A stretch of 64,000 nt of DNA. It comes from Pegea sp. RAD2-039. Lineage: Eukaryota > Chordata > Thaliacea > Salpida > Salpidae. The DNA lies in contig JAQGEQ010000071.1 of assembly GCA_034620365.1 (NCBI GenBank), positions 4,030,001-4,094,000 of the forward strand, read 5' to 3'. Positions 25,109-58,433 of the stretch are shown in pieces (positions within the stretch are counted from its first letter, which is position 1; the number at the start of each line of letters is the position of its first letter). The position numbers were made by a program, and so were the translations under genes. The notes under the pieces were generated by a model. It saw only the letters and a program-made list of their open reading frames with translations, had not been told where the DNA came from and ran no database searches.

Positions 25109-28100
25109 ATGGATCCTGAAAAAGTAAGTTACAACATTTATTTAAAGTGTTAAAATAATTATTTAAACTTTATCATTTTATAAATAAAGATAACCAAATA
25201 ACAGGATAATTTATAAATATATAAAAGCTTTTTTGATTTTTATGATTTATGTTTATTTTTATATGACAACCATTTGGAAAATTTAGTTTCATTGAAATTT
25301 TTATTTCTTCATTTAATTTTTGTCTTACAATTATTCTATGCAGACTTATATTTAGGTTTCAAACTCGTTTTACAGAAAGTTTATACAAAGAGAAAAAGTG
25401 TTAGACAGTTTTTGTGTGATTTTAAAACCAGTTTCATTTCAAAGTAAGTTCAACGATGTTGCATGCAGGAAGATAATTTGAGTTTCTTAGTCAGTTGTAA
25501 ATGATGAGATGTCGCTTGAAACAAGTGTTGAGTAGTAGCAGTTATTTGAAACAAACTGACATCAAAAAATTGAAAAATATTTGTTTGATTTTAGCAGAAA
25601 AGAGGAAGTAAACCAATGTTTAGTGTTGGAGAAGAGACCAAGTTTGGTGACTTTGTACTCCACCTATGGCAATCAAATGTCAAAATAGCGATGGCAAACC
25701 TCCTGAGTTTAGTTGGTGAGTATCTGGAGATGTTTCCACGTGCTAAAAAGGCTTCTAGTAAATCAAGTCCCAGTAATTTATGGTAAGTTGATGGTTTGGG
25801 GTCAATCCAATCAGTTAAGGACCATTTGTAGGTTCATTAACGTGGTGAAAAGACGTCGAGAGCTTCACGACATTTATCACAGCAAAGAGTTTAAAGAATT
25901 TCGCAAATTGTCACAACGCGAAATTGAGTGTCTCAAAAACCGGATGTTTGCGGTGAGTAGCAGCGTTTTCCCATCCGACGTTGCCTAGCAACGCATCGAT
26001 CGTACAGGAGATCTCGAGTGCTCTGACGCCGGAAGAAATTGAAAAGAACAAACAAGAAGTTCTCGAAAAAGAACTTCGACAAAGTGGCAGCAAGAAGAAA
26101 GAGATGTCACCTCGCGAACGTTTGTGGCGTTCTTCTCGTTTATCAACCGATTCCAATTTGGATGACGATGAATCAAGCGACAATGACGTCAGACCGAAGC
26201 GACGCAAACGCAAGCGAATCGCTTCTGTACGCGTGAAGAACGAGGAAGCATCCCCGACTGGTATCAAGATGAAGATTATGTGTAATACAGAAGATTCGAC
26301 CACGACATATGAAGTCAAATACGAAGATTCGTCATCAACGCGCGCGCCCCAACCGCTCCCTCCACCACCGCCGGTCGCGTTTCGGGTAAGTAATCACGTG
26401 ACCACCTCATTGAAGCTTCATCGCCATTTGTGCAGCCAAGCGTGACGTCAACTCCAACAGCGAAGAAAACGACGCGCGCTCCGTCGGGAATCATTCCTCA
26501 CGATGCTGTCCCAATTCATGATATCATCTACGAGGTCGGCGAGTGGATCGAAGCCCTGGACCGCGGTCACTGGTGGAGTGCTAAGATCGTCATGGTGAGT
26601 GTATGTTGGCGTGCGTTTGTGTGACGTCATCAGTGACTGACAATGCGGTTGCTATAGTTAGACGACAACGCGGTAAAAGTCCATTTTCGGATGTGGGCAG
26701 CAAAGCATGACCGGTGGTATGTCCGTGGTTCACTACACTTACGTGGACCCACTCAAAGTGACCTACGATCAGCAGCACAAGTGAGTCGCGCGCTTCGTTG
26801 CCTAGCAACCACCGCTGTCAACTTGCAATTCAGTTTCGTGTTGGCGAGAGTGTGTTGGCACCATGGAAGGACAACAAACGATATCCGGGCAAGATTGAGT
26901 CTGTCTCTTCTTCCGGAAACTACACGATTCGATTCTTTGATGGATTGACTAAAGTGATGCGGTCCAAGGCCTTGTCCCGACTTTCTGCCCAGGACGAGGT
27001 GCCCTTCAACTAAATGGTCTCCAAACGCCCCACTGACCCTTGACTTACAGCAAGCAGCGATCGAAGCAGCCATGCGGAACGCGCAGCCAAAAGATGATCC
27101 CGCTGACGTGGATTTTCGCGCTTATAAAACTTCAGCTACTGATCGTGAAAGGCGTTTGACAGCGCGTCGTCAAAGTGGTTGGTTGCTAAGTAACAGCGTC
27201 ACCGTGCGGCTTTAATTGTTGTTGTGAACAGATTCAGTAAACACATCGAAAGAAGTCTCGGTTGCCAGGGCAACGTCATCAACAAGCTCGATGCAAACCG
27301 CTGAAAGTAGTCGACCTCGAAGTACCAGAACATCGTAAGTGGTCGTTGTCATGACAACCGACAGCTTTTAACGCGTTCTCTTTAGAAGTTCCGTGAAGCA
27401 AGAAGCTCCGACCAAACCAAAGAAGACGTCATCCAGGTTTCTGATTGGACGATTTCTCGACTGATCTTTAACTTGTTTTAATCCCAGCATCAAATCGAAG
27501 CCGCAATCTTCTAAGAAGCAAGATGAGGATCAAGATGAAGAATCAGATGAAGATCTCGGTTTGTATCTTCAACACATCAACTTGTGAATCTTTCAACATC
27601 TTCTCATCAGATCAAATCGAGAAGTTGTTGCGGAAAACATCGAAACCAGTCGAAGGAGGAGGAGACGTCCTCACTCGCTTCCAACAAGCTACTCTGATGT
27701 ACGCTAGCAGAAAAGTCACTTTAACAGAAGTAGGTGCCCCTAACTCCCCATTGATCCCATCTAACTCTTCTTCATCATCAGGCTTGTGATGCTTGCGGAC
27801 TTGATCCGACTGTTCTTCGACGAATCCTTAGAAATCGCGCTTTTAATCCAAAGTTCATCGACGCTGATAAGAAAACAAACCTCCTCAATAAAGAGGACTT
27901 CTTCTCGCTTCGTGATTGGATGTTGAAGGTGTTGATGGCAGGCTGGCGGGTTCCAGACTCCTGCGTCATCTTCTATTTGGTAATTTTACTGAAAAATCGA
28001 CGCCAAAAAGTCATCTTCGACAACGATGAGCTTCTTAATCGCGCTAGCATCAAATGGGTCAAAGGTGAGTCTTCACGCGTGAGTGAACACGACGCTTATC

Positions 28101-31100
28101 TCGATCTTTAGATTTTCGTGTAAGAAACGAGATCTTCCCTGCCTCTAAAGACCCTTTTGATGATGAGCGCAAATCATGTGATCCTCATCTTCACTGGTTG
28201 AAACATCGATTAGATTTTTCTTGTGATTATTACAATGTTGCTCCTAATCTTATATTCTATCTCGACGAGATGAAGATCACTTTTGACAGTCGGACTAGCT
28301 TCTTCTTTGAAGATGAACACTTTGAAGTATCAACTGGATCTCAATTAACTGTCCTAAGCTGTGTCTGTGCTGATGGTTCGGCCCTCGAACCCATGCTTAT
28401 ATTCCCAAGTAAGTGTTGACGTCATCAGTGGATTGAACCAATCAGAACTCGCTATTTTGTAGCTGGTAACAGTATGCCTGATGAACAAGATGGTCGCCTG
28501 TCTACAAGTCCCAACGAGCAACTCACTTATTTACATCTTACCAAATATATCGAGCGTAACATCCAATCCGCTTATCCACTTCAGTTCACGTCGCGATCTG
28601 TCCTCATCTTAGACACACAGATTCAAGATCTTCCATTCAGAGCGCTGGAGTATGGCTTCGAGACTCACACGATCTTTCTCAAGTAACTTCATCTCATCTT
28701 TTGACGTTTGAGACATCTTCTTCTTCTTTGTAGTATGATGCCTGATGTCCAAGAGAAGTTTTCTATGAAAGATCAGATATTATTTGGAAGATCTGCATCC
28801 AATTGGAAAGCTAGTATCGTAAGATTTCTTCTCCTTCATCTTCTGTGTCTTCATCTTCTTGTTTTTAGATGAAAAAGTTGATCAAAAGTGAAGTTCCTAT
28901 TGATTGCGACGTCTTGCTCAATTCTTATTCGAGTTCTTTTAAGAAGAAAGCTACATCAAAAGCTATTAAAGTAGAAGATCAATTAATATCTCATCTGATC
29001 TTCATCTTCATTCTTTTCAGGAAAGCTTCGAGAACTCCCAAATCTTCTTCCCTTTGAGCACCCTTGAATTGAAACGAAAACCTTCAAAGATCCCTTGGTA
29101 CACTCTATCGAGAGGTGCCCTTGTTTTACCTCCTCAACAATTTCTCATTCGATTTTTTAACAGAGAAACGCGATGAAGCTCTTCACAACGAGCGAGGAGC
29201 AGGAAGTTATCGACAAGGTAGCATCAACAGCTCCCTAAACATCCAACAAATCCTTCAATCTTCATCAGGGAGCCGAGAAGCCGCCCCAACCACTTATCAC
29301 TCGAAACGTAGTAGAAGATCTCTTAGTACTGTCAATTACGCTGATACTTCCATCTCACCGGAACTTCTCGAAGCCGTAGATGAAGCTCACATCACTTCCG
29401 GTATAAAACACAGTTGAAAGTGTTGTTAAGTCACTTTTGTCTATCTTGCCAGCCACTTGTTGTTTTGAGATTGTTTTTTGTGATTGTCAAATCAGCTGTG
29501 TTTGAAATTCTTGTTTGGGATTTTGCTGTCCATCGTGTTTTCACTTTTTGTTTCTGTTCAATTTGATACTGACTAACAACCTGAAAGTTGTAGGACACAA
29601 TTTGTTGGTTTGATAAATCAAGGACTTTTTTTTGTTAAACTTTTCCAAATAAATTGTGTTTGTAAAATCTCCTAATTGTTTGATTTTAAAAGTTTCAATT
29701 AAATTTTGGTAATTAGCTTGCAATTTGATTTTTTTAATTTACAAAGTCATTAAAGTTGTTTTCTGTTTTTTTCAGTAATCTATTTTATGCTTGTTTTTTC
29801 AGTAATCTATTTTATGCTTGTTTTTTTCAGTTATCCATTTTAAGCTTGTTTTTTCAGTTATCCATTTTATGCTTGTTTTTTCAGTTATCCAGTTTGAGCT
29901 TGTTTTTTGCAGTAATCTATTTTATGCTTGTTTTTTCAGTTATCTATTTTAAGCTTGTTTTTTTCAATTATTCCACTGTTAGCTTGTTTTTTCAGTTATT
30001 CCACTGTTAGCTTGTTTTTTCAGTTATTCCACTGTTAGCTTGTTTTTTTCAGTTATTCCACTGTTAGCTTGTTTTTTCAGTTATTCCACTGTTAGCTTGT
30101 TTTTTCAATTATTCCACTGTTAGCTTGTTTTTTTCAGTTATTCCACTGTTAGCTTGTTTTTTCAGTTATTCCACTGTTAGCTTGTTTTTTCAGTTATTCC
30201 ACTGTTAGCTTGTTTTTCAGTTATTCCACTGTTAGCTTGTTTTTTTCAATTATTCCACTGTTAGCTTGTTTTTTCAATTATTCCACTGTTAGCTTGTTTT
30301 TTTCAGTTATTCCACTGTTAGCTTGTTTTTTCAGTTATCCACTGTTAGCTTGTTTTTTCAGTTATTCCACTGTTAGCTTGTTTTTCAGTTATTCCACTGT
30401 TAGCTTGTTTTTTCAGTTATCCACTTTGAGCTTGGAATTAGTAAGTTTCATCAGAAGCCTAATTATCAGAAAATCTTTTAAAATTTGTAATAATTCCACT
30501 GAAATACAACAAATAGTAAATAAGAAAAGGGGACGCAGGGTAGGGGCTTGAACCTAGTTTGAAGTGACCAGAAGTCCGGCTTGTAGACAGACTACTGATG
30601 AAATGTTGTTTGCTTCTCGCTTATTTTCGTTTCATGAAAGTTGGTTAGAAATGAGATTTGTTTTTAGCATTACTACGACAACCGGCATCTGAAAAATATG
30701 ACAGGAAAGACACGTACCAAGTTGGTGAAAGTGTTTATGCTTTCTGGGCTGACTGTTACCTCTACAAGGCTACAGTATTGGGCAAAGTCAACGAAGGTAA
30801 GATTTTATGATTAGTCCAAGACCTAGGTCAGTGGTTCTCAACCTGCCCCTTAATTATATTTATTAATTTTTTGTATAAAATATAAAAGTTTAATTGAAAA
30901 GATTTTAATGATTTCTTGATTGATTTGAGAACCACTGTTTGCTTCATCAGTTCAATCAATTTGATTGAAATTTGTAAAATTTTACAGATAAGTATCAAGT
31001 ACGATATCATGATGGTGTCGTTAAAACTGTCGAAAAAAGTCTTTTACGAGAGTATCCATATGATAAAGAAAAAGTAGAAATTCCTCTTTCCATCAAAGAA

Positions 31101-34100
31101 TCGAATAAAACGAAAAAGGGTTTACTTGAAAAGGAACCACAGGAACAGTCTAGTTAGTATTTAGCAACAAATTTGTGAAATGGGACAACTTTAGTTGAAA
31201 AATGTTTAAGGGCTTAACAGAAAGTTTCTGAAATCTATTTTTGTGCTTGTCCAGTGATTAGTTTGTTAAAATTTCGTTTGTTTTTAGCTTCGCAGCTGAA
31301 AATTAAAAAAGAAATTGTTGAGAATCAAGAAGAAGAAGATGAAGTTGATGAAACTAACAAGGAACAGGTCATAGAAGAACAAGTTCCTAAATTGATACCA
31401 AAAACACCAGATTTACAAGCTGTGGACCACCAACCGACCACTGCTACCACCTCTGGTAATTTGTCACTGAAACACAGCCATCTTGTAGCAGATAGTTTGA
31501 AATTTATCAAATTAATTTTAGAAATAAGAAATGAACCTGTAGTTGAAGTGAAAAAGTATCAAGTTGGAGATATCGTCTCCTGTAAGTGGACTGATCGTCG
31601 TTACTATGGTGCAAAGATCCTAGAAGTCCTTAGAAACGGTAAATAGATCGATTAAAGCGTCCTTGACAACATGAATGTCTTTGTAGGTTGCTATCGAGTA
31701 CAGTATGAAGATCGACGCAAAAAAGTGGTGAAACCAGACTGGGTTTGCGACAAAAACTCTAGTATTGAAGGAACCATTAAAATTACTAAACACCATAAAC
31801 CATTCGTGGTGCCAACACCAACCAGTACACCAGCACAAACACCACCTCCATCACCAGCAGTTACCATAACACCTTCACCCTCTCCTGCTCCCCGTAGAGG
31901 AAGAGGCAGACCTAGGATTCATCCCCTCGTGCAGCAAACTCCTGTCAGCCGGGTTGAGAAGCCTACAAGTCCCGCGGATTCCAGTCCGATGCCCCGATCT
32001 ATTTACAGTCCTCAAGTTGATGAAGAAGCAAAGTTCTCTACTATCGAAGAGGTTTGTTCATCTACAACGGTTGCCATGGTAACGTGACGTCATCTGTGCA
32101 GTCGGATAAGAACGCCAGTCCTGAATTTATGCCTCATCATCGACTGGTTAAAGTACCAAAAAAACGCGGCCGAAAGAAGCGACGTCGCCCCGTCCACATC
32201 TACCGTATCCATGGCAAAGGTCTGGTCCAAGTCCGACATTCAGAGAAGGTCTCAGAACCTCCAAAAGAGTTGAGACCGCTTCAAGTAAGTCCACCACACT
32301 CACAACGAAAAACATCGCGCTTATATGACGTCATCAGGCCGATTCGACGTCACGTGGTTTAATTTTCTCCGTACGCTCATCTGACGTCACCAGCTTCGGG
32401 CGTCATCGTCGTCGAAGACGTCATCATCACGTGGCTCGAGTCCGCAAGTTTGGATGCGCTTTTTGTGAGGATTTCTTTGCAGAGGAACATCAGCTCTTAA
32501 GACACATCAGGAAGACTCATCCGTTCGATGAATGCCAGAAGATCACATCACGGGAACAACGTGGTAAGTTGAAAGTGCATCGCGCGTTAGTGACGTCACT
32601 AATTGCTTAATGCAGCGGTGATGGAAGCTAGACGTCGAGCTGTTGAAGAATCGGCAGCCGTAGAACCGAATCAACCTCCAATTAAGTGAGTTGATCCCGG
32701 ATGTTGATCTTTACAAATGATCTCGTTTGTGTCTTGTGTGTAGAAGAGGACCAGGAAGACCACCAGGATCGCTGAATCGCGTCAAGTCATCGAAAACCGC
32801 ATCAGTAAGCTCTTCCTTCTTTTCAACATCATCTCATTCGTCAGTTTTATCAGATCCGAAAAATTCCTAAAATGGTCATCGACAAAACTGGCCCACAACT
32901 GCCTCGACCAGAAGTGGTCCACAAGTCGCCGACCACGCAGCCCGTTGATGAGTCTACTGCCAGTTATGAAAACCAGGGTGGAATGATGGTCCAATGTGAC
33001 ATATGCGAGGTCTGGAAGCAAGCTGACCGTGAAAGTGTCAGTCGCGATCCATTAGTCGAGAAGTTCATATGCTCCATCTGCAAAAAGCCACCACGTGTCC
33101 GAAAGTGAGTAGTTGTCATGACAACCATCGCGCCACCTAATGACGTCATTCGCAGATCACAGCAGTTCGATTGGAACAATGAGTTCCTGGCCGAGGGCAA
33201 GCTGCCTACGTCATTAACGCGCGTCACCGGAGAACACAAGAACGCTCAGCTTGCTGCCAAGGTAACTACATCCCTACGCGCGCTGACATCTTTATGACGT
33301 CACGTGATTACAGCTGGCGGCTTCAGTGATCCGTGAAGTGGAGCAAATAATCGCAAAAGTTCGCGCGTTGCGTCACATGTGCGATAAGTGTCACGCGCAC
33401 GAAGGTAGTGACGTCATGATGTTTCTGGCACATTACTGGAATGGAGGCATCAGTGAAGTTACCCCAACTGAACATGTATCCGAAGACATACTTCAACAGA
33501 TCTCGCTCAAATCGGGCGTTCCAGGTACGCGCTGGTCACATCACGTGACAACGCGATGATGACGTCATCTGTTGTAGTGTCGGAGCTGAGCGCGAGTGGT
33601 TTCAAGCGTCAAGGAGCGCGATTAGGAGTTGATTATTTAGAGAAGATTGTTTCTGATGCCGATTACAAACCTGATCTTGAAGTTCTTTTTGTTGATCTTC
33701 AACTTCCTTCTAATCCCAAGGATGCAGTAAGTGCCCCTGTTTCGCTCCAAACAATTTTTCTGATCACGTGATGCAGGGAATTTATCGACGAGTGTTGATC
33801 GAGATGTTTCGACTTCATTCACGTCACTTCCTCAATGCCCATTGTCAATCCATCTTAGATCAATGCTTCGATCGCTTCCAATCTCTCCGACAACAATTTC
33901 AAGGTTCCCCACGCCCCCTTCTACATCTTCTAACTTGTTTTTTTTGCAGTGATCCGTCAACTGAATCCTTATCAAATTGAATTTCAACCTTCACTTCTCG
34001 AACAAGCTTCAGAAGTTCAACGACTTCATCGACAAATGAAATTCCTCCACAAGTCATTTCGTGCTCTTGAAGCTAAAACGCTTCCTCCAACCCCAACTCT

Positions 34101-34161
34101 CGCCCCTCAACCCTCATCTCCCCCAACAACCAGTCCTCATTTGTCGCTTAGCAACCGCTAA
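25109..34161 (+). CDS. PHF20-like chromatin reader with an embedded pogo-type transposase domain
   Basis: Starts with a five-codon exon (25109-25123, MDPEK). Main exons traced by eye: about 25598-25782, 25832-25952, 26008-26385, 26436-26594, 26658-26780, 26834-26998, 27051-27177, several to 28408, 28463-28682, 28734-28819, 29021-29114, 29164-29400, 30668-30798, then many to the TAA at 34159-34161. Order of domains: acidic and basic N-region, two Tudor domains, pipsqueak/Tc5-like HTH, DDE transposase core, two further Tudor domains, AT-hook (RGRGRPRI), C2H2 finger, second AT-hook (KRGPGRPPG), degenerate PHD, and the C-terminal PHF20 region (WNNEFLAEGKLP, IIAKVRALR). PHF20 acts in MOF/NSL acetyltransferase complexes, binding methyl-lysine. 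All junctions I checked keep one frame, including 29400 to 30668. Two adjacent genes remain possible. Confidence 0.8.
26436..26998 (+). other. First Tudor pair of the PHF20-like gene (coding sub-region)
   Basis: Three exons. The first domain reads YEVGEWIEALDRGHWWSAKI, then VHFRMWAAKHDRWYVRGS with HLRGP. This is the MBT-like first Tudor of PHF20/PHF20L1 (D-aromatic-W signature). The second reads FRVGESVLAPWKDNKRYPGK, then YTIRFFDGLTKVMRSKAL, like PHF20 Tudor 2. The aromatic residues that could cage a methyl-lysine are largely present. The last exon ends at a GTGCCC donor; read-through would hit TAA at 27011. Confidence 0.8.
27590..28960 (+). other. Pogo/Tigger-like transposase module (HTH-HTH-DDE) inside the PHF20-like gene
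   Basis: The segment reads, in order, RFQQATLMYASRKVTLTE joined to ACDACGLDPTVLRRILRNRA (pipsqueak/CENP-B-type HTH), then DFFSLRDWMLKVLMAGWRVP and RASIKWVKDF (HTH_Tnp_Tc5-like), then a DDE_1-type core. In the core, LIFYLDEMKITF holds the first Asp (codon near 28264). QLTVLSCVCADGSALEPMLI is a near-diagnostic beta strand of the family. SVLILDTQIQDL holds the second Asp (near 28612). An MKDQ sits where Tigger proteins have PMDQ, about 35 residues later. So a DD35D-like triad may survive. Several introns split the module, unlike active pogo elements, and no terminal inverted repeats were seen. This suggests an old captured gene. Family assignment is by eye only. Confidence 0.65.
29401..30667 (+). 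other. Proposed 1.27-kb intron joining transposase and second Tudor set
   Basis: The exon ending at 29400 leaves one base (G) of a codon before a GTATAA donor. The exon starting at 30668 after TTTTTAG begins with the two remaining bases (CA), giving Ala and continuing LLRQPASEKYDRKDTYQVGE. Without splicing the upstream frame stops 12 codons later at 29417. It is much longer than most introns of this gene and contains the minisatellite at 29.75-30.44 kb. If unspliced, it is instead an intergenic gap between two genes. Confidence 0.55.
29752..30436 (+). repeat. T-rich minisatellite, ~28-bp unit, about 24 copies
   Basis: The typical unit is AGTTATTCCACTGTTAGCTT followed by GTTTTTTC. Early units (29.75-29.95 kb) have variants such as AGTAATCTATTTTATGCTT. 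Unit length varies by one or two bases in the T run. Each unit ends with a T tract then CAG, so it looks like a 3' splice site. The plus-strand reading frames across it (repeats of Phe-Phe-Ser and Ser-Leu-Phe) are artefacts of the repeat. Confidence 0.93.
30668..34161 (+). other. Second Tudor pair, AT-hooks, C2H2 and PHD part of the PHF20-like gene
   Basis: Tudor 3 (YQVGESVYAFWADCYLYKAT, YQVRYHDGVVKTV) and Tudor 4 (YQVGDIVSCKWTDRRYYGAK, YRVQYEDRRKKVVKPDW) are both of the PHF20 Tudor-2 type. A Pro/Thr-rich linker with an AT-hook follows (near 31,895). Next come a C2H2 finger CAFC-x12-HIRKTH (32,455-32,530) and a PHD remnant, VQCDICEVWKQADRES...FICSICKKPP (32,985-33,100). The PHD remnant keeps CxxC pairs at each end but lacks the central His and Cys of the C4HC3 pattern. 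The C-terminal coiled region matches PHF20 after its PHD. Many introns here are 45-60 nt. Confidence 0.8.
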
Positions 34162-41692: not shown

Positions 41693-42686
41693 ATCACTTG
41701 CAGCAATGCGTTGAATAAAATCAATACAAATGAATAAATACGTTTCACATTACTAAAAGTTCTTTAAATTATTGAAATTAATTTTGCTTAACGCAACATA
41801 CTCATAAATATACATTGAATAATGAAACCTAATGGTTTGTTAACAAGTTAAGAATTTAATAGTTGGATTTTTACAAATCAAAGTAACATTTTTAAAATAT
41901 CGTACGTAAAACTTTACTCTTAATTTTTTTATTAGCGCGCACAATAACTAAACTTTATGATACCTTCTTTTTAAAAGTAAGAGAATAATTTTAACTATTT
42001 AACTAATTTCTTAGACAAATTAAACTGTTTAGGAATGATCTTAAATGATTATATCGCTTAACAAATCCATAAAAAATTAAAGTTTGTGAAAATATCATAT
42101 ACAAATTTCTTTAGGTAAACTACATTTATATCAAAAAAATTAAATTAAAAAAAGTTACCTTTATGGTTTTTGAAAAATAATAGAAAGTTTGTTGTCAGAT
42201 AATTTTGTTTATGCGAAGCTAACAAAGTAAACAAAATCTGTGTTGTAACTTTTATAAAGTCAAATATTGAGAAAAAGAACTTAATTAATTCTGTCTAATA
42301 TTTCCAATTCGATCATTCACAAAATAAACTGGATAATATTTTGAAAGATTTTTGAAAAACTTATTCAAAAAACAATAAATTTTTAATGCCAACAATTTTA
42401 AAGCTTATTTTAGTTAAAAAGCTTTATCAAATGGTTTCACTGTCGGGAGTTTTATAGATATCAGCTTAAATTTTCATCGGTTAATGAAATATACTTGCAA
42501 TATTTTTTACGTTTTTTTTTCAATATAAAATTTATTTTTCTGAAAATTAATTTATAACTTACAGAATTAAATATTACTTATTTTAGATTAATTTTGAATG
42601 ATGAACAAATTGTGTTTATAGTACAGAGTCTATATGTTTTATTTTAATATATTATAATTTTTTTATGAGCTTCAAGAGAAAAAAAC
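41693..42686. other. AT-rich intergenic stretch
   Basis: Upstream of the first MRG15 copy. No gene or repeat identified. Confidence 0.5.
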
Positions 42687-43720
42687 ATGTCTGCTAAAGA
42701 TGTAGAGTTTTTTGAAGGTGAAAAAGTTCTTTGTTATCATTCATCTCTTCTTTATGAAGCAAAAATTTTATCAATTTTTAAAGAGGATAAATCAAAGTCA
42801 TATTTAATTCATTATGTTGGTTGGAGCAAAAAATGGGATGAAGTCATCCATTCTGACGAAATTTTAAAGATGAATAGTTCTAATTTACAAAAAAAAACTG
42901 AGCTTGAATTAAATCATCCACAAATTCAAAACTCATTAAAATTAAGTAATAAAAAAAAGCAACTTCAATCAAGAAAAAAAGGATTATCCCCTGCAACTAG
43001 CAAAAAAAGTAGAAATCTACCTTCTGCACAAAAGAATTTAGTTTCTAATCAAAATGATCCAATCAAAGTCATAATTCCTGATAATTTGAAACCGATTTTA
43101 TATGATGATTTTAAAAATGTCACTAACTATGGATTTTTGTGTAAACTTCCTGCTAAGAAATCAGTTAATAGTCTTTTAGAAGAATTTATAAAAGGTTTAG
43201 ATATAGAGCATGCAAATAGAAGTCATCTTAAGGAATTTAAACTGGGAGTCAGATCTTTTTTCGATCATCTTCTAAATACTAGATGTCTTTATCCACAAGA
43301 AAGACTTCAATATTCCCGAGCACTATCTGAGAATCCAAACAAAACAAACTCTGAGCTTTATGGAGGTATTCATTTGTTGAGATTCTTTACAAAGATTGGC
43401 AGCTTTTTGGCTTATTCTTCTTTGGAAGCTGAACAAACTAGTAAACTGCTTTACTACATTCATAATTTCTTAGCATTCATGGATGATAATTTAAACAACA
43501 TTTTTAGTCAAGAAGATTATTTACTATCTAATTCAAGTAAGTTGAAAAATTTATTTATTATTAATTTAAATAGTTTTTTTATAATACTTTTATATTTTTA
43601 AATATTTTATGCAAATAATTTATAATAACAATTGCATTTTAACCACATAATTGTTGAAAAGTTTAAATCATTTATCTTTATTTTTATAGGTTCTATGAAT
43701 TCTACTCAATCAAATAGATA
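42687..43720 (+). CDS. MRG15-like protein, copy 1 (chromodomain + MRG domain), diverged
   Basis: ATG at 42687. Chromo-barrel domain at residues ~8-65 (KVLCYHSSLLYEAKIL, LIHYVGWSKKWDE), a Lys/Ser-rich linker, then the MRG domain at ~125-290 (CKLPAKKSVNSLLEEFIKGL, LNTRCLYPQERLQY, ELYGGIHLLRFFTKIG). MRG15 binds H3K36me and recruits NuA4/SIN3-type complexes. The coding body is one exon. A donor after LLSNS at about 43541 and an acceptor at about 43690 would give a short last exon ending near 43720; read-through would end at 43601. Compared with MRG15 and copy 2, the WDEWV motif of the chromo domain is reduced to WDEVI, losing an aromatic residue. That suggests relaxed constraint on methyl-lysine binding. 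Confidence 0.85.
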
Positions 43721-46257: not shown

Positions 46258-47281
46258 TTCTATCTGCAGCAACTTAAAGCTCTCTTTAAAACTTGAGTTT
46301 TGGAAAAGAGGCCTCGAAAGAAAAAGGTTTCGAGTTGCCTGCCTAAAATATAATAAGACCATGATCAAGTTTTAATGTAATATTTGAGCGAAATTTGAAG
46401 ACAGTAACAACGCTACTACTGTTAAGCAAAAATTAAAATTTATCTTCAAACATTTTTTTTTGAAAGATTTTTTTACTTCTTACTACTTTAGCATAACTTT
46501 TAACCTCAAAATGAAAAAAATAATTTTATTAAAAAAAATTAAAATAGTACAAATGTTAATAATGTTAATAAATATAAAAATTTGTAAATTTCAGTTTTCG
46601 GTGAATATTTTAGCTTAAATTTATTTATTTTGAAAAATCTCTTTAACTTTTGTTTATAACCAAATATTACAATTTATTAAATTAGTTTAAATTATTTGAT
46701 GAATTTAACTTTAAGGTTCAAATATTAGTGATAATACTAAATTATAAAGTTATTATATTTAATTGTAGATTTTACATATTTTTTTTTCAATCTAATATAA
46801 AAAAATAATTCTTGTTTAAATTAATTTTTTTCTCAATAACTTTAAATTATTTATAAGAATTATATATTTATTGTTTCATATTTTTCAATGTTTTGTTTTC
46901 AAGTATCCCTTTTATATAAAGACTTATAAGAAATGACTTAAATTTTTAGAATTGATTTTTCTAAATATTTCCTGTTTGCTCAGATTCGATTTTCTATAAA
47001 TATTATTTTCACAAAAACAGAAAATTTTTGGTTCTGAGTTCATCAAAGTTCACTCTTTAAATTATTTTTATTATTTTTATAAACTTTTACTGCTTAATGT
47101 CAAATAATTTTTTATGTTTAAATTTTTAAATCAAAAATATTATCCATATTACAAACATTTTTTACTTTATTTCTATATTAAACAAATATCTTTAATTTAT
47201 GACCAATAATAGAATTATAATATTATATTTAAACATAATTTCTAACCATAAAATTTTTAATTGGTTCTTAGGTTTTTTATA
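46258..47281. other. Very AT-rich stretch upstream of MRG15 copy 2
   Basis: No gene. A TTCTTAG at 47265-47271, just upstream of the copy-2 ATG, could be a 5'-UTR splice acceptor. Confidence 0.4.
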
Positions 47282-48178
47282 ATGTCACCCAAAGGTGCAA
47301 AGTTTCATGATAGTGAGAGGGTTCTATGTTTTCATGGTCCTTTGCTTTATGAAGCTAAATGTATGAAATCTGAGTTAAGAGAAAAAATTGTTTATTATTT
47401 GATTCATTATAATGGTTGGAATAAACATTGGGATGAGTGGGTGTTAGAGCAAAGAGTTTTAAAATACAATGCTGCAAATTTACAGAGACAAGCTGAATTA
47501 TTACAACAACAAAATAAGGAAAAAAGTAAAAGAAGTAAGCCTGCCAAACTGATGAATAGAGATAAAGATAAACAATACTCTAGAAAATCAGAGATTTCAT
47601 CATCTCCAGCAGAATCTAAAAGAAAAAGAATTTCTTTGGCAATTGATAGTGATACTATTGATGAAACTGAAGAAGAAAAAGAAATAGAAGAAAAAATGGA
47701 AGCAAAAATAGAAGTTCCAAGTACTTTGAGATCTATATTGAATGAAGACTCTCAAAATATTACTAAAAAGAACTTGTTGTGTAAATTACCTGCAGATAAA
47801 TCTGTTGAAGACCTTTTAAATGATTTTATTGAGCATGAAAAACAAGAAGGGGGTTATAATAATCATTGGAATGAATTTGCTTTTGGAATAAAAGCATTTT
47901 TTGATCAGATTCTAAATACTAGATGTCTGTATGCTGAAGAAAGACAACAATATAGTAAACTTGTTAGAGAAAATGAAAACAAAAGCCTTTCACAACTTTA
48001 TGGTGGTATCCACTTATTAAGATTTTTCATAAAAGTCGGCCCCCTTCTTACATATACTAGTTTGTACCCTGAGCATATTACCAAAGTGATTAACCACATG
48101 CATAAATTTCTTTCATTTCTGGAAAGTGATTCTAACAAAATATTTTTAGCAGATAATTATATTATAGCTGAAAACTAA
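47282..48178 (+). CDS. MORF4L1: MRG15-like protein, copy 2 (chromodomain + MRG domain)
   Basis: The ATG at 47282 is chosen because MSPKGAKFHDSERVLCFHGP matches the family start. The frame is open seven codons further up but has no other ATG. Chromo domain: LIHYNGWNKHWDEWVLEQRV, with the full WDEWV motif, then NLQRQAEL. An acidic/basic linker leads to an MRG domain: LCKLPADKSVEDLL, FFDQILNTRCLYAEERQQY, LYGGIHLLRFFIKVGP, and a C-terminus LADNYIIAEN. 298 residues in one exon; vertebrate MRG15 is 323-362. Expected role: H3K36me reader and scaffold of NuA4/Sin3 complexes. The lack of introns, shared with copy 1, suggests origin by retroposition followed by duplication. AATAAA at 48277 is about 100 bases past the stop. 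Confidence 0.92.
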   Translation: MSPKGAKFHDSERVLCFHGPLLYEAKCMKSELREKIVYYLIHYNGWNKHWDEWVLEQRVLKYNAANLQRQAELLQQQNKEKSKRSKPAKLMNRDKDKQYSRKSEISSSPAESKRKRISLAIDSDTIDETEEEKEIEEKMEAKIEVPSTLRSILNEDSQNITKKNLLCKLPADKSVEDLLNDFIEHEKQEGGYNNHWNEFAFGIKAFFDQILNTRCLYAEERQQYSKLVRENENKSLSQLYGGIHLLRFFIKVGPLLTYTSLYPEHITKVINHMHKFLSFLESDSNKIFLADNYIIAEN

Positions 48179-53972: not shown

Positions 53973-56114
53973 TTAGTCAAATGTTATGAGCAAGTTTTGC
54001 TGGTCATTCTCTGCCGTTCCAGTTGTTTGTTGATCTGCTGGAATAGGAGGTTGTTGGGAGTTATCTAGAGGGTAGGCTTGTTGATTAGCTTGCATTTGGT
54101 AGCCACCAGTGTCAGTAAGTTGATAAGATTGCAGTGGTGTTTGTGGTGGAGCAGTAGCAACTACATGATGGTTATTATTTTGTAAGCCAGCTGTGGTGAC
54201 AGTTTGTTGTGGTAAGGCTGTTTGCATCACTTGCATGTTATAAAACTCCTGAGGTAAGTTACTCGCTGAATAGCTTCCTTGTGGATACTGCATTGGTGCT
54301 TGGTTTGTTCTGTTTACATCAGAATATCCTTGATACTGAGCTTGATGAGGTGCAGCAGAGTATGCTTGAGATGGAAACTGATTTGAAGGATATGTTTGTT
54401 GACTTGTAACTTGAGGAGCATAATAATTGGCATTATAATTGACCATATCATTTGGAGTTTGATTAGCTTGCATGTCGTATTGATTTGTGTAACCAACAAG
54501 CATTGGTTGCATCGCTCTCTGTTGGATATATTGTTTCTGTTGTTCTAGTTTCACTTGGCGAGCTGCTTCTTGTTCTTGCATCCGTTGTAAAGCAATCTGT
54601 CGTTGATGAGCCAGATACTCTTGCTTCTTCTGCCTCATTAATTGTAGTTTTTGACTCATTTGTATCTGACGGAGTCTTTCTGCTTCCTCAGCATCTCTTC
54701 TTAATTTTTCAGCATGATCTGCTCTCAGAGCATCCAGAGCCGCTCTTGCATCTTTCATCTGTGTCACTTTATCTTGAAGAGCTTCTTGTGTCAAACGCGA
54801 TTCTTCAAGATGATTCAACATGTGAAGAACTTGAGGATGCATCGAATTAATAGTTTGGAAAAGTGTTTGAACCGCCGAATCATTAGAAATTGATCTTCCT
54901 CGGATCTGATTAGATCTCATCCTATTCATGAAGATTTCGATACTTGTACGAAGATTTGTGAGAAGTTTTTGATCTTCATCTGAAGTATAGAGGACGTTTT
55001 CCTGCATCACCTGCACCTCAGGAGCTATTTCCTCCATTTTCTTTACTTCTACATTCACTGCTTCTTTGTCATGTTGATTCGAGGAGCTTTGCTGATCTTG
55101 CTTTTCCTTTTTCTTCTCCCAATATGCTCTATTAAAGTAATGAGCCAGATCTGGATCAACATTTTCTTTTACGGAGTTTTTAGAAGTTTCATTTGGAGAT
55201 CCGACTTTAGTTTCATTTGGACTAGAAGTTGTCTCCGAGTTCTTTTCTCTTTGAATCTGAGCACGATTTTGTTGCTCATCCAATGAAAGAGCAAGAGCCA
55301 ATTGTATCTCCTCTTCTTCTTTTAACTCTGCTTCAGTTTTTTTCGGAGGTTCTTGAACCTCTTTAAAAAGAGCACTTTGTAGATACTCAATTGGCAGATC
55401 AGACTCAGTCTTTGAAGAGCTTGCTCCTTTTTTTGATGAAGCTTTTTTGACACTTAATTGAGAGTAACAATCATCACAAACTCTCACTTCCTTTTCAATA
55501 CCAAATTTTGGAATTATAGCTTGCTTGCTTGTACATTTGCTACAAAATATTCCACCACAAGCTCTACAGTGATGTTTTCGAGTTACAACACCAAATTCAG
55601 TCTTACAACTCGAGCATTCAGCTCCTTCTCTCCATGTAGGTGCAGACTCAGACTTAAACATATCACTAACAGTTTTTTCTGGTGGAAATTTATATCCTTC
55701 TGCTTTAAGAACATTGTAGAGGGTAAATGCAATTCTTAATTTGGAATCATTTTTAAAACCAAGACCCCAGCACTGAATCATTTCCAAAAGTTTATTCTTC
55801 AGGTTATCTGATCTTGTATTTTTCACCAAGTCTTTCATTTTCTCCATATATTGTTCAGTTATTACCTCAGTATGAAAGCTTTCACCGCAGTTTTTCATCA
55901 CTGTATCTAGAACACTGATAGCCAACAGCTTTTGGTTTGGATTTTTTTCATCCATAACACGATTTTTTATTAAAGTAGCAGCATCCCGGACTTTAACGTC
56001 TCCACCTCTAATCTGATCACAAATTTGGAGCATACAGTCCAAGTCGGGTTCTAATAAAAGATTGCTAGTGGCCTTATCAAGAGTTTTTTCAAAAACAGAC
56101 TTTGTGCGAAACAT
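53973..56114 (-). CDS. HGS: Hepatocyte growth factor-regulated tyrosine kinase substrate (HRS/HGS), intronless
   Basis: ESCRT-0 subunit that sorts ubiquitinated cargo at early endosomes. One uninterrupted 713-codon frame. VHS domain ~1-145 (FEKTLDKATSNLL, LLAISVLDTVMKNCGESFH). FYVE finger ~162-220 with the PI3P-binding RKHHCRACG and paired cysteines. UIM ~262-282 (EEEEIQLALALSLDEQ). Coiled-coil helical region ~370-550 (EKLRRDAEEAERLRQIQ), then a Gln/Pro/Tyr-rich tail and a C-terminal LLITFD clathrin-box-like end (human ends in LISFD). All expected parts are in order, at a length near the human protein's 777. The complete absence of introns, next to a Rab escort protein gene with many, suggests a retroposed origin or intron loss. 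Confidence 0.96.
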   Translation of the reverse strand: MFRTKSVFEKTLDKATSNLLLEPDLDCMLQICDQIRGGDVKVRDAATLIKNRVMDEKNPNQKLLAISVLDTVMKNCGESFHTEVITEQYMEKMKDLVKNTRSDNLKNKLLEMIQCWGLGFKNDSKLRIAFTLYNVLKAEGYKFPPEKTVSDMFKSESAPTWREGAECSSCKTEFGVVTRKHHCRACGGIFCSKCTSKQAIIPKFGIEKEVRVCDDCYSQLSVKKASSKKGASSSKTESDLPIEYLQSALFKEVQEPPKKTEAELKEEEEIQLALALSLDEQQNRAQIQREKNSETTSSPNETKVGSPNETSKNSVKENVDPDLAHYFNRAYWEKKKEKQDQQSSSNQHDKEAVNVEVKKMEEIAPEVQVMQENVLYTSDEDQKLLTNLRTSIEIFMNRMRSNQIRGRSISNDSAVQTLFQTINSMHPQVLHMLNHLEESRLTQEALQDKVTQMKDARAALDALRADHAEKLRRDAEEAERLRQIQMSQKLQLMRQKKQEYLAHQRQIALQRMQEQEAARQVKLEQQKQYIQQRAMQPMLVGYTNQYDMQANQTPNDMVNYNANYYAPQVTSQQTYPSNQFPSQAYSAAPHQAQYQGYSDVNRTNQAPMQYPQGSYSASNLPQEFYNMQVMQTALPQQTVTTAGLQNNNHHVVATAPPQTPLQSYQLTDTGGYQMQANQQAYPLDNSQQPPIPADQQTTGTAENDQQNLLITFD

Positions 56115-58433
56115 ATTTCTTACGTAGATATGATAATTATTACAAAATACTCAGACCTAAAAACAGTTGAAAGATTTTATTAAATTAGCTGCTACTAAAA
56201 AACTTTTTAATCTTAGGAAAGCAATTTATAAAACAACTAAACACTTTTTAGTTAATATAATTGATTATATACAAAAAGCTTTTAAGAGATTTATAATTAG
56301 TGATATAAGAATGTTTATGTTTGAAGTTAGTTAGAAGAAAAAGCTTTATATTTTAGTATATTATAAAAATACTATGACTGATATAAAAAAATAAATTTTA
56401 TTATTTAAACTTTATTTTATTCAATGCATATGTCAAATTATACTCTTCTTATAACAGGCACTGACTTTTTGATCCGTTTGTACTCTAAGATTTATTTGCA
56501 AAACAAGTTATTAATGACTTGGTGTTGTTGGTCAAGAAGTTTTTATAAATCAATGTGCTAGAAGCAGGTTAGTCCTCAGCACCTTCAAACACCAAGCACA
56601 AAACTTGTTTGTAAGACAAGTTATTAATGACTTAGTGTTGTTGGTTGAGAAGTTTTTACAAGTTAAGGTGCTAGCAAAGGAGCGGAGTTTTACATAAAGA
56701 TCAAGTGATGAAGAATAATTATTCAAAATTTTAAGAAGGACCAACTATGTGCCCTACTTAGTACTTATTGCTCTTATAGCAAGCACTAAACAGTATGACT
56801 GGAGAAAAATAATGAAATATTCTTAATATAGTTTAATATAATCAATACATAAAAATAGGAAGACTGAAGACTATGTATTTAGTATTTTATATAGGTTATA
56901 TGATCATTTAAATAAAACTTAAGTTTATATCAGTTATGAATCAAAAGTACAAAATAAATGGAGAAAATGAAGAAACTGATAGTATCTATTCTAAACAAAA
57001 TTATTAAAATCATATTTTTTCAAACATAATTTTAAAATATAAATTATTAATTAAATAATTTTGTTTAATAAATAAAAGTTATAATTATATGATTAACTCA
57101 TATAAAAACATTTCTTGATATTTTATGTTAATAACACAACATTAAAATTATACATTTTTTGAAATATTATATAAATGAAATATAAATGACATGACCAAAA
57201 TAATACAATGAATCATAAATTATATAACAATGTTCAAATTATTATTGAATCAAATAACTTACATTGTAACAAAGTTTATATAATTAAATAATTGAATAAT
57301 GATTTAAATTAAACATTCTAATAACTTATATAAAATACATACATGATAACAATTACAACAATATTATAGTGATCAAAATAAGACTGGGCATTTTTTAATA
57401 ACAATTTATGTTATCAACAGTTAACTTTGTAAGCAAGTAACAATTTGTTTGATAAACCTTAAAGACTTATTTAGATAAAGCTTTATTTTAAAAACTATTT
57501 GTTTTATAAAAACAGATTTCAGAAATTTAGAAAAATAAGATTTTTAAATTAAACTTGACAAAAAATGTTAGATTTTTAACGGTTTAAAGTTTTAAAAGTC
57601 AAAAACAATTTAATAGAATAAAAAATAAAGTTGATGAACATTTAAAAAATAGTTATCCAAAATTCCAAGAGATAAATTAAATAATTAAAAATAAATTAAA
57701 AAGTAAACAGCTTGGCTAAAACGTAACTTTAAAAAAATAACATTAAGATGAAAAAAAGTTAAAATTTAATTCGAACAATTCAATTTCAAATAAAAATAAA
57801 TTTCAAGTTATTTCAAATAAAGGACTTGAATATTTTATTAATTTTACAAAGGTAAGATTAGAGAGAGTTTAATAAAAGTCACATTAAACATTATTTGTGA
57901 TTTTTGGTAGAAATATGAAAGGTTATAGTCCCGTGAACTTACCAAAACAAACTAATGATGCAATTTACTAAATTTACCAATATTTGTATAATTTATACAA
58001 ATGCACAAATTGGCATTAAACCGATAATTTTACAATAAAACTCTATTGGTTCTTGTTGATAAAACCATATCAGTAATAACAGCTCATAAACAAAACTTAG
58101 ATTGAAAAAACATTAACTTTTCCAACCAACAACGATTTATTGGAAATATACAGACAACTAGATGCTACTCAGTCATTTTGATTAAAGAATAAGACAAAAT
58201 TCTTTATGATAGTACCATTACATACTTATTCACATTACAATTTATTATATTATAATTTTTCTTAAAATTTTGTCAGTTTTTTAGTTGGTTAACTAAGCTT
58301 AGTTCATTTAAGAAGTTTTCTCCAGATTGTTTTGTTGATGTACATAATAGATATTCGTTATTTTGTATATTTTAGTCTATATAAGATATTTTGTAAAATT
58401 ATTTTTATTCATTACAACAAATGCAAAGGATCG
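56115..58433. other. AT-rich intergenic stretch with one direct repeat
   Basis: No gene supported. Apart from the repeat pair at 56.5-56.7 kb it is AT-rich unique DNA with scattered short A/T tracts. Confidence 0.55.
56499..56676. repeat. Imperfect direct repeat, ~65 bp, 113 bp apart
   Basis: Copy 1 (56499-56565) and copy 2 (56612-56676) share ACAAGTTATTAATGACTT then GTGTTGTTGG, AGAAGTTTTTA and GTGCTAG with few changes. Just before copy 2 is a short inverted repeat, AACTTGT-7 bases-ACAAGTT. It may be a decayed mobile element, family unknown. Confidence 0.75.

Follow-up and report, generated by a model that had tools for sequence, protein, structure and literature searches.

Can a transposase have been built into a chromatin reader? 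The question is raised by a gene in the stretch analysed here (the window), 64,000 nucleotides of contig JAQGEQ010000071.1 of the salp Pegea sp. RAD2-039. In other animals, PHF20 is a methyl-lysine reader and a subunit of the nonspecific lethal (NSL) acetyltransferase complex, and new DNA-binding regulators are known to have arisen by fusion of host genes to transposases. An earlier reading of the sequence (the original prediction) had placed a pogo-type transposase inside a PHF20-like gene of the window. The explanation that we favour, with moderate confidence, is a PHF20-type gene in which a pogo/Tigger-like transposase was captured long ago, the fused gene having then been duplicated, and the captured part lending an NSL-type reader the ability to bind DNA. 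The gene models give one spliceable frame, PHF20-like Tudors, paralogs that repeat the joins between host and transposase-like parts, and a transposase-like order and spacing of motifs.

Gene model and domain order

The exons were spliced by hand from the plus-strand reading of 24.0-35.5 kb of the window, and the splicing was checked in Python. The model runs from an ATG at 25109 to a stop at 34161 (35 exons, 1808 amino acids); all 34 introns are GT-AG, there is no internal stop and a single terminal one, and intron length is 46-66 bp in 30 of the 34 cases, the remaining four measuring 135, 191, 471 and 1267 bp. The single frame across many introns that had been claimed for this gene is thus borne out, and in our judgement chance alone would be most unlikely to leave 35 exons in one unbroken frame. 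The least certain exon is the first (25109-25123, MDPEK).

25109-25123, 25595-25782, 25832-25952, 26008-26385, 26436-26594, 26658-26780, 26834-26998 (+): exons 1-7
27051-27177, 27232-27334, 27386-27436, 27488-27558, 27611-27729, 27782-28064, 28112-28408 (+): exons 8-14
28463-28682, 28734-28818, 28869-28970, 29021-29114, 29164-29217, 29269-29400 (+): exons 15-20
30668-30796, 30988-31152, 31288-31455, 31522-31638, 31687-32051, 32102-32284, 32338-32563 (+): exons 21-27
32616-32685, 32744-32804, 32854-33104, 33156-33261, 33314-33524, 33578-33726, 33777-33903, 33950-34161 (+): exons 28-35

The encoded domains follow one another as N-terminal region, Tudor 1, Tudor 2, a Ser/Lys-rich linker, two putative helix-turn-helix (HTH) regions, a DDE-like core, Tudor 3, Tudor 4, AT-hook-like motifs, one C2H2 finger, a PHD-type finger and a C-terminal region. 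C14 and C84, named in the list, are two paralogs described below.

25595-25952 (+): N-terminal region, family unknown, conserved in C14, with which an intron is shared; nothing at or below E 0.1 in a Pfam search
26436-26780 (+): Tudor 1, PHF20 Tudor-1 type (PDB 3q1j/3sd4, PHF20, E 2.2e-5)
26834-26998 (+): Tudor 2, PHF20 Tudor-2 type (PDB 2equ, PHF20L1, E 7.9e-10; Pfam Tudor_3, E 2.5e-7)
27611-28140 (+): two putative HTH regions, HTH1 at about 27640-27840 and HTH2 (Tc5 type) at about 27850-28140
28243-28404 (+): DDE-like core, beta1-3, with the first acid (YLDE, D at 28264-28266) and TVLSCVCADGSALEPMLIF
28463-28970 (+): DDE-like core, second half, with the second acid (LILD, D at 28612-28614), the third (MKDQ, D at 28771-28773) and a GR.[AS]S.W-like motif
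29021-29400 (+): three exons ahead of the long intron, extending the transposase-like part at its C-terminal side
29401-30667: 1267-bp AT-rich intron, donor CCG/GTATAA, the fourth weakest of 58
29767-30434: 28-bp tandem array, 24 copies, filling half of that intron
30668-31080 (+): Tudor 3, nearest PHF20 Tudor 2 (PDB 3p8d, E 2.4e-6; 3qii, PHF20, 4.1e-6)
31522-31770 (+): Tudor 4, nearest KDM4 Tudor (PDB 4uc4, E 1.3e-3; Pfam Tudor_2), with a counterpart in C84
31896-31916 (RGRGRPR), 32159-32191 (KKRGRKKRRRP), 32745-32765 (RGPGRPP) (+): basic motifs in the translation, presumably of AT-hook type
32455-32520 (+): single C2H2 zinc finger CAFC-x12-H-x4-H in the translation, with weak matches to C2H2 fingers
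32995-33081 (+): PHD-type finger CDICEVWKQ...CSIC (PHD_5, E 9.3e-4, below the curated cut-off; nearest PDB PHDs ASH1L/MLL5, E 6e-3 to 8e-3)

For both members of the N-terminal Tudor pair, PHF20/PHF20L1 are the best PDB matches. The original prediction had set the HTH and DDE segments between two PHF20-type Tudor pairs: Tudors do flank them on both sides and Tudors 1 to 3 are PHF20-like, but Tudors 3 and 4 do not form a clean PHF20 pair, because Tudor 4 is nearer to KDM4 Tudors (1.3e-3). In the PHF20 family, AT-hooks and a C2H2 finger lie between the Tudors and the PHD; in the window gene, such motifs can be read in the translation, and the profile matches to them are weak.

Whether these domains belong to one gene or to two hinges on the junction 29400/30668. 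Two genes would mean a split PHF20, with an N-domain/Tudor/transposase gene ending at the TGA at 29415-29417 and a Tudor/zinc-finger/PHD gene starting in the AT-rich stretch before 30668; they would agree with the weak donor at 29401, which tells against a single gene, with this in-frame stop shortly after it, with an AATAAA near 29650 and the AT-rich tandem array in between, and with the C14 model, which stops right after its DDE part. The gene models nevertheless support the join of a single gene, because the intron phase fits (phase 1 on both sides), because an equivalent join is present in the C84 model, where HTH/DDE is spliced to Tudor 4 over a 184-bp intron in the same phase, and because the Tudor 3-4 exons have no in-frame ATG, so that a separate downstream gene would require an unseen first exon. 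We therefore regard two genes as unlikely.

Paralogs and age of the proposed fusion

A search of the genome (here and below, the 105.7-Mb assembly in 387 contigs) with the transposase part brought two more loci, C84 (L017) and C14 (L018). The C14 model consists of the N-domain, Tudor 1, HTH, DDE-like core and stop (619 codons, no internal stop, start exon not identified), the C84 model of HTH, DDE-like core, one Tudor of the Tudor 4 type and stop (525 aa). Both joins, from Tudor 1 into the transposase-like part (C14) and from the latter into Tudor 4 (C84), are thus repeated in other genes of the genome. Over the transposase part, C84 is 32% and C14 24% identical to the window gene; Tudor 1 of the window gene and of C14 are 52% identical over 71 columns, Tudor 4 of the window gene and of C84 42% over 62 columns. 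Six introns are identical in position and phase in all three genes (alignment columns 22, 117, 217, 290, 319 and 353), a seventh (column 384) is common to the window gene and C84, and further shared introns lie inside Tudor 1 (window gene and C14) and inside Tudor 4 (window gene and C84). In the C-terminal extension (29021-29400), the introns before and after the first exon match those of C84 in position and phase. Each paralog splice site is GT-AG and is bounded by aligned exon sequence.

Some points weaken this evidence: the paralog splice sites were picked by an eye that already knew the window gene, and their agreement is not blind, the join of Tudor 1 to HTH in C14 is modelled across a 1175-bp intron, and neither paralog has the whole architecture, Tudor 2 and the 3' half being absent from C14 and the 5' half from C84. 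Even so, the paralog models support the fusion beyond the window locus, and the simplest history would be that of a single fused gene which was duplicated twice, with ends being lost. The capture would then be old, the fused gene having been duplicated at least twice, with copies down to 24-32% identity and six intron positions kept. To that extent, the idea of a captured transposase is strengthened as regards the fusion, and left unproven by profile as regards a pogo/DDE_1 origin.

The ratio of nonsynonymous to synonymous substitution (dN/dS, NG86 method) over the transposase part of the three copies is 0.31, 0.35 and 0.31 (dN 0.74-0.92, dS 2.4-2.6). This check had been proposed for the DDE part, and its outcome points towards constraint, of which it is only a hint because dS is saturated. 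If the part is rightly identified as a transposase, it would accordingly be one lying in frame with host domains and apparently under constraint.

A second PHF20-like gene devoid of the insert did not turn up among the best candidates scored. With E up to 10, the N-terminal 383 aa returned only the window gene, C14 and a copied C14 exon (E 0.5), and the C-terminal 846 aa, besides the window gene, only C84 (E 0.078); a diverged second PHF20 copy could escape such searches. By this sequence evidence, the window gene is the one full-length PHF20-type gene found in the genome. The copied exon (L028, on C14 at about 22.4 kb) is nearly identical to the N-terminal exon of the C14 paralog (L018:1524-1702), from which it lies about 200 kb away, and is apparently a recent partial duplication.

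Origin of the transposase-like part

The transposase-like part of the window gene is open across nine exons, and the motifs YLDE, TVLSCVCADGSALEPMLIF, LILD and MKDQ are all present where the original prediction had read them. The three acids are D/D/D with 97 and 35 residues in between, i.e. the DD35D spacing (113 and 34 residues in L001, a Tigger-like copy of the same genome). A pogo-type/DDE_1 origin of this part is likely, not proven, because of the motif order, the DD35D spacing, a marginal HTH_Tnp_Tc5 match and the alignment of one segment; the case for it is weaker than had been held at the outset.

The HTH match concerns Pfam HTH_Tnp_Tc5 (PF03221), another of the profiles proposed for checking. 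It is weak on C14 (E 0.036), where it is the sole family returned for the HTH/DDE half, and on the three-paralog consensus (E 0.16 whole, 0.0096 trimmed); the window protein and C84 are unmatched, and all three loci are missing from the genome-wide list of 19 matches. The segment alignment concerns beta1-3 of the window copy, compared with the Tigger-like transposon of the same genome: in three settings, 0, 1 and 2 of 2000 shuffles scored at least as high, as against 52, 83 and 101 for C84 and 403, 941 and 968 for C14. For HTH2 of the window copy the figures are 13, 53 and 28 of 2000, and for the second half of the DDE-like core, which is not significant, 93, 827 and 59; since the segments were picked after the motifs were known, all these figures are supportive rather than blind. 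In global alignments to a composite own-genome Tigger, the window copy scored above 990 of 1000 shuffles of the transposon and its HTH part above 997, the HTH parts of C84 and C14 ranking above 591 and 918 of 1000. When the three copies were summed, the score was reached by 12 of 1000 shuffles for HTH and by 418 for DDE.

A considerable body of results weighs against a pogo origin. A match to Pfam DDE_1 (PF03184) had been put forward as the test, its absence counting against the identification; with a limit of E 10, DDE_1 was listed neither for the window part and both paralogs nor for the motif-bounded pieces and the three-paralog consensus, and on the profile side the prediction failed. As HMMER filters discard most matches above about 0.1, this is to be read as no match of note, not as none whatever. 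Searches of PDB with the transposase-like part gave no credible match. When the paralog alignment was compared by hhalign with transposon pieces from the same genome, the result was 0.3%; hidden Markov models (HMMs) of these transposons showed nothing in C84 and C14 and reached 2.4 bits in the window copy, in the wrong place, a score attained by 18 of 1000 shuffles of that copy (1000 shuffles were made per paralog, of which HMMER reported 525-723). In global alignment, the whole DDE part of the window copy exceeded only 778 of 1000 shuffles (222 reached its score), and C14 and C84 are not outstanding. When the window copy itself was shuffled, 13, 14, 181, 451, 12 and 7 of 500 shuffles equalled or exceeded the real score in six settings; in two of the six all three acids fell on the right acids, and in the first of these two, 10 of 500 shuffles also placed three D on D. 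AlphaFold models of single exons were poor (predicted local distance difference test, pLDDT, 55 and 57), and among the matches that Foldseek listed for these two models there was neither a transposase nor an RNase H fold. The beta1-3 exon model (pLDDT 57, low confidence) is all-beta, with five strands and the first acid inside a strand; folded as a single exon, it had no fold match at E 0.001. Scans of viral contigs with the paralog alignment and with the transposon protein gave nothing informative.

Could the middle part then be an unrelated domain, resembling a transposase by a few motifs only? Such a domain would be expected to fail by profile, by fold and in the databases, as the DDE half does, and the paralogs, which are without a full D/D/D triad, give little or no alignment signal. 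Against it stand the succession of two HTH regions and three acids at pogo-like distances, the return of HTH_Tnp_Tc5 as the sole family for the corresponding half of C14 and the rarity with which shuffles match the window beta1-3 segment, post hoc as its choice was, and we think this explanation improbable. Even less can be said for a recent, functionless Tigger insertion into a PHF20 gene, which we reject as having almost no chance of being right. The genome does harbour a Tigger-like family, and an exon-by-exon search found at least 28 DDE_1 matches at E 0.001 or better; none of them is in the window, 19 of the 28 listed carry stops, and the eight loci compared belong to a single family, with 53-95% identity to L005 over their main pieces. 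The window part, on the contrary, is open over its nine exons, has no clear profile likeness to that family and is common to two diverged multi-exon paralogs.

Meaning of the proposed fusion and known systems

The old capture would have placed a pogo/Tigger-like transposase between the Tudor pair and the zinc-finger half of a PHF20-type gene. In CENPB and POGZ, HTH regions and transposase fold have been put to use in DNA contact, dimerisation or scaffolding. By analogy, the two HTH regions of the window gene would add DNA contacts, so that DNA targeting by them is plausible; the DDE-like fold would serve as a scaffold or dimer surface, and the Tudor, PHD and C-terminal parts would supply chromatin reading and membership of an acetyltransferase complex. 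As for other NSL components, the MCRS_N domain of the subunit MCRS1 occurs in two places of the genome (E 3.1e-47), at C59:349607-350149 and 361566-362129, on opposite strands and about 11 kb apart; the KANSL1/MSL1 domain PEHE gives a weak match under the cut-off (E 0.002).

The original prediction had asked whether a retained DD35D triad might leave residual activity. The window copy does have D/D/D, but C84 has D/D/E (spacing 97/34) and C14 N/R/D (94/33, without the triad), which speaks against catalysis as the function kept. Cutting is probably not what the family is retained for, because C14 lost two of the acids and nevertheless keeps an open frame. That the window copy alone keeps a working D/D/D under selection, making an NSL-type reader whose HTH regions steer DNA cutting or strand joining at a fixed word, seems to us very unlikely. 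If the favoured explanation is true, one of the conserved reader subunits of a histone acetyltransferase complex contains a fused transposase in the only full-length copy that was found, and a small family, with a transposase part not flagged by Pfam, goes back to this fusion; the gene would also offer a test of whether a general promoter complex gains sequence-specific targeting through transposase capture.

The surroundings of the gene deserve some remarks of their own. The window contains 38 copies of the palindrome TGACGTCA for 0.51 expected, mainly at 0-6, 15-20 and 26-34.4 kb. Genome-wide, TGACGTCATC is found 21,962 times on both strands, versus 145 for a reversed control; within the PHF20-type gene, its places are short introns, exons and the sequence beyond the stop. 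A word resembling the cAMP response element (CRE) about once per 5 kb of an animal genome is striking, and a search of the literature for such an iterated CRE-like word found, by title, no such case. The G+C content of 2-kb bins in the window varies from 0.22 to 0.48 within a few kb. The neighbouring frames listed here were named by eye.

42669-43598 and 47261-48175 (+): adjacent long open reading frames reading as MRG15/MSL3-like (chromo barrel and MRG)
53976-56150 (-): intronless 725-codon open frame reading as HGS/Hrs (VHS, FYVE, glutamine-rich end)

MBD-R2 of Drosophila would offer a parallel to the present case through its N-terminal THAP domain, which is of P-element type; we know of no pogo-like DDE part in it. 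In the accessible parts of the sources it is an NSL subunit equated with PHF20 (PMC6772098, PMC6607013), the word THAP being absent from that part of PMC6607013. PHF20/PHF20L1, the proteins with the Tudor sequences nearest to those of the window gene, have two Tudors and a PHD finger and, as far as that text describes them, neither a transposase-like part nor Tudors 3-4 (PMC6607013); a survey of Tudor genes likewise gives PHF20-20L1 as a double Tudor. The open literature covered (subscription papers and preprints being outside it), including the accessible portions of PMC12147562, PMC10027918 and PMC12062965, describes no member of the PHF20 family that carries a transposase part, in agreement with the earlier statement that none was known.

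On the transposase side, one of the nearest parallels is POGZ, which arose by fusion of zinc fingers with an HTH of the Tc5 type and with a DDE_1 core, and in which the triad is kept as DD35D, like that of the window copy; POGZ differs in that its DDE_1 core is assigned by profile, in being known from vertebrates and in having no Tudor or PHD described in the part of the source available (PMC7386202). CENPB, POGK, TIGD and JRK genes are domesticated pogo elements that retain HTH and DDE core, whereas fusion with Tudor/PHD readers is not described for them in that same part (PMC7386202). Triads are altered in several domesticated pogo genes (DD34S, DD30N, unrecognisable in CENPB), and with a range going from the kept DD35D of POGZ to the unrecognisable triad of CENPB, the mixed triads found here are ordinary for domestication, as far as this partial account goes (PMC7386202). 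The lack of a DDE_1 profile match sets the present gene apart from POGZ; as a probable host-transposase fusion it would belong to a known kind, of which a case in the PHF20 family seems new.

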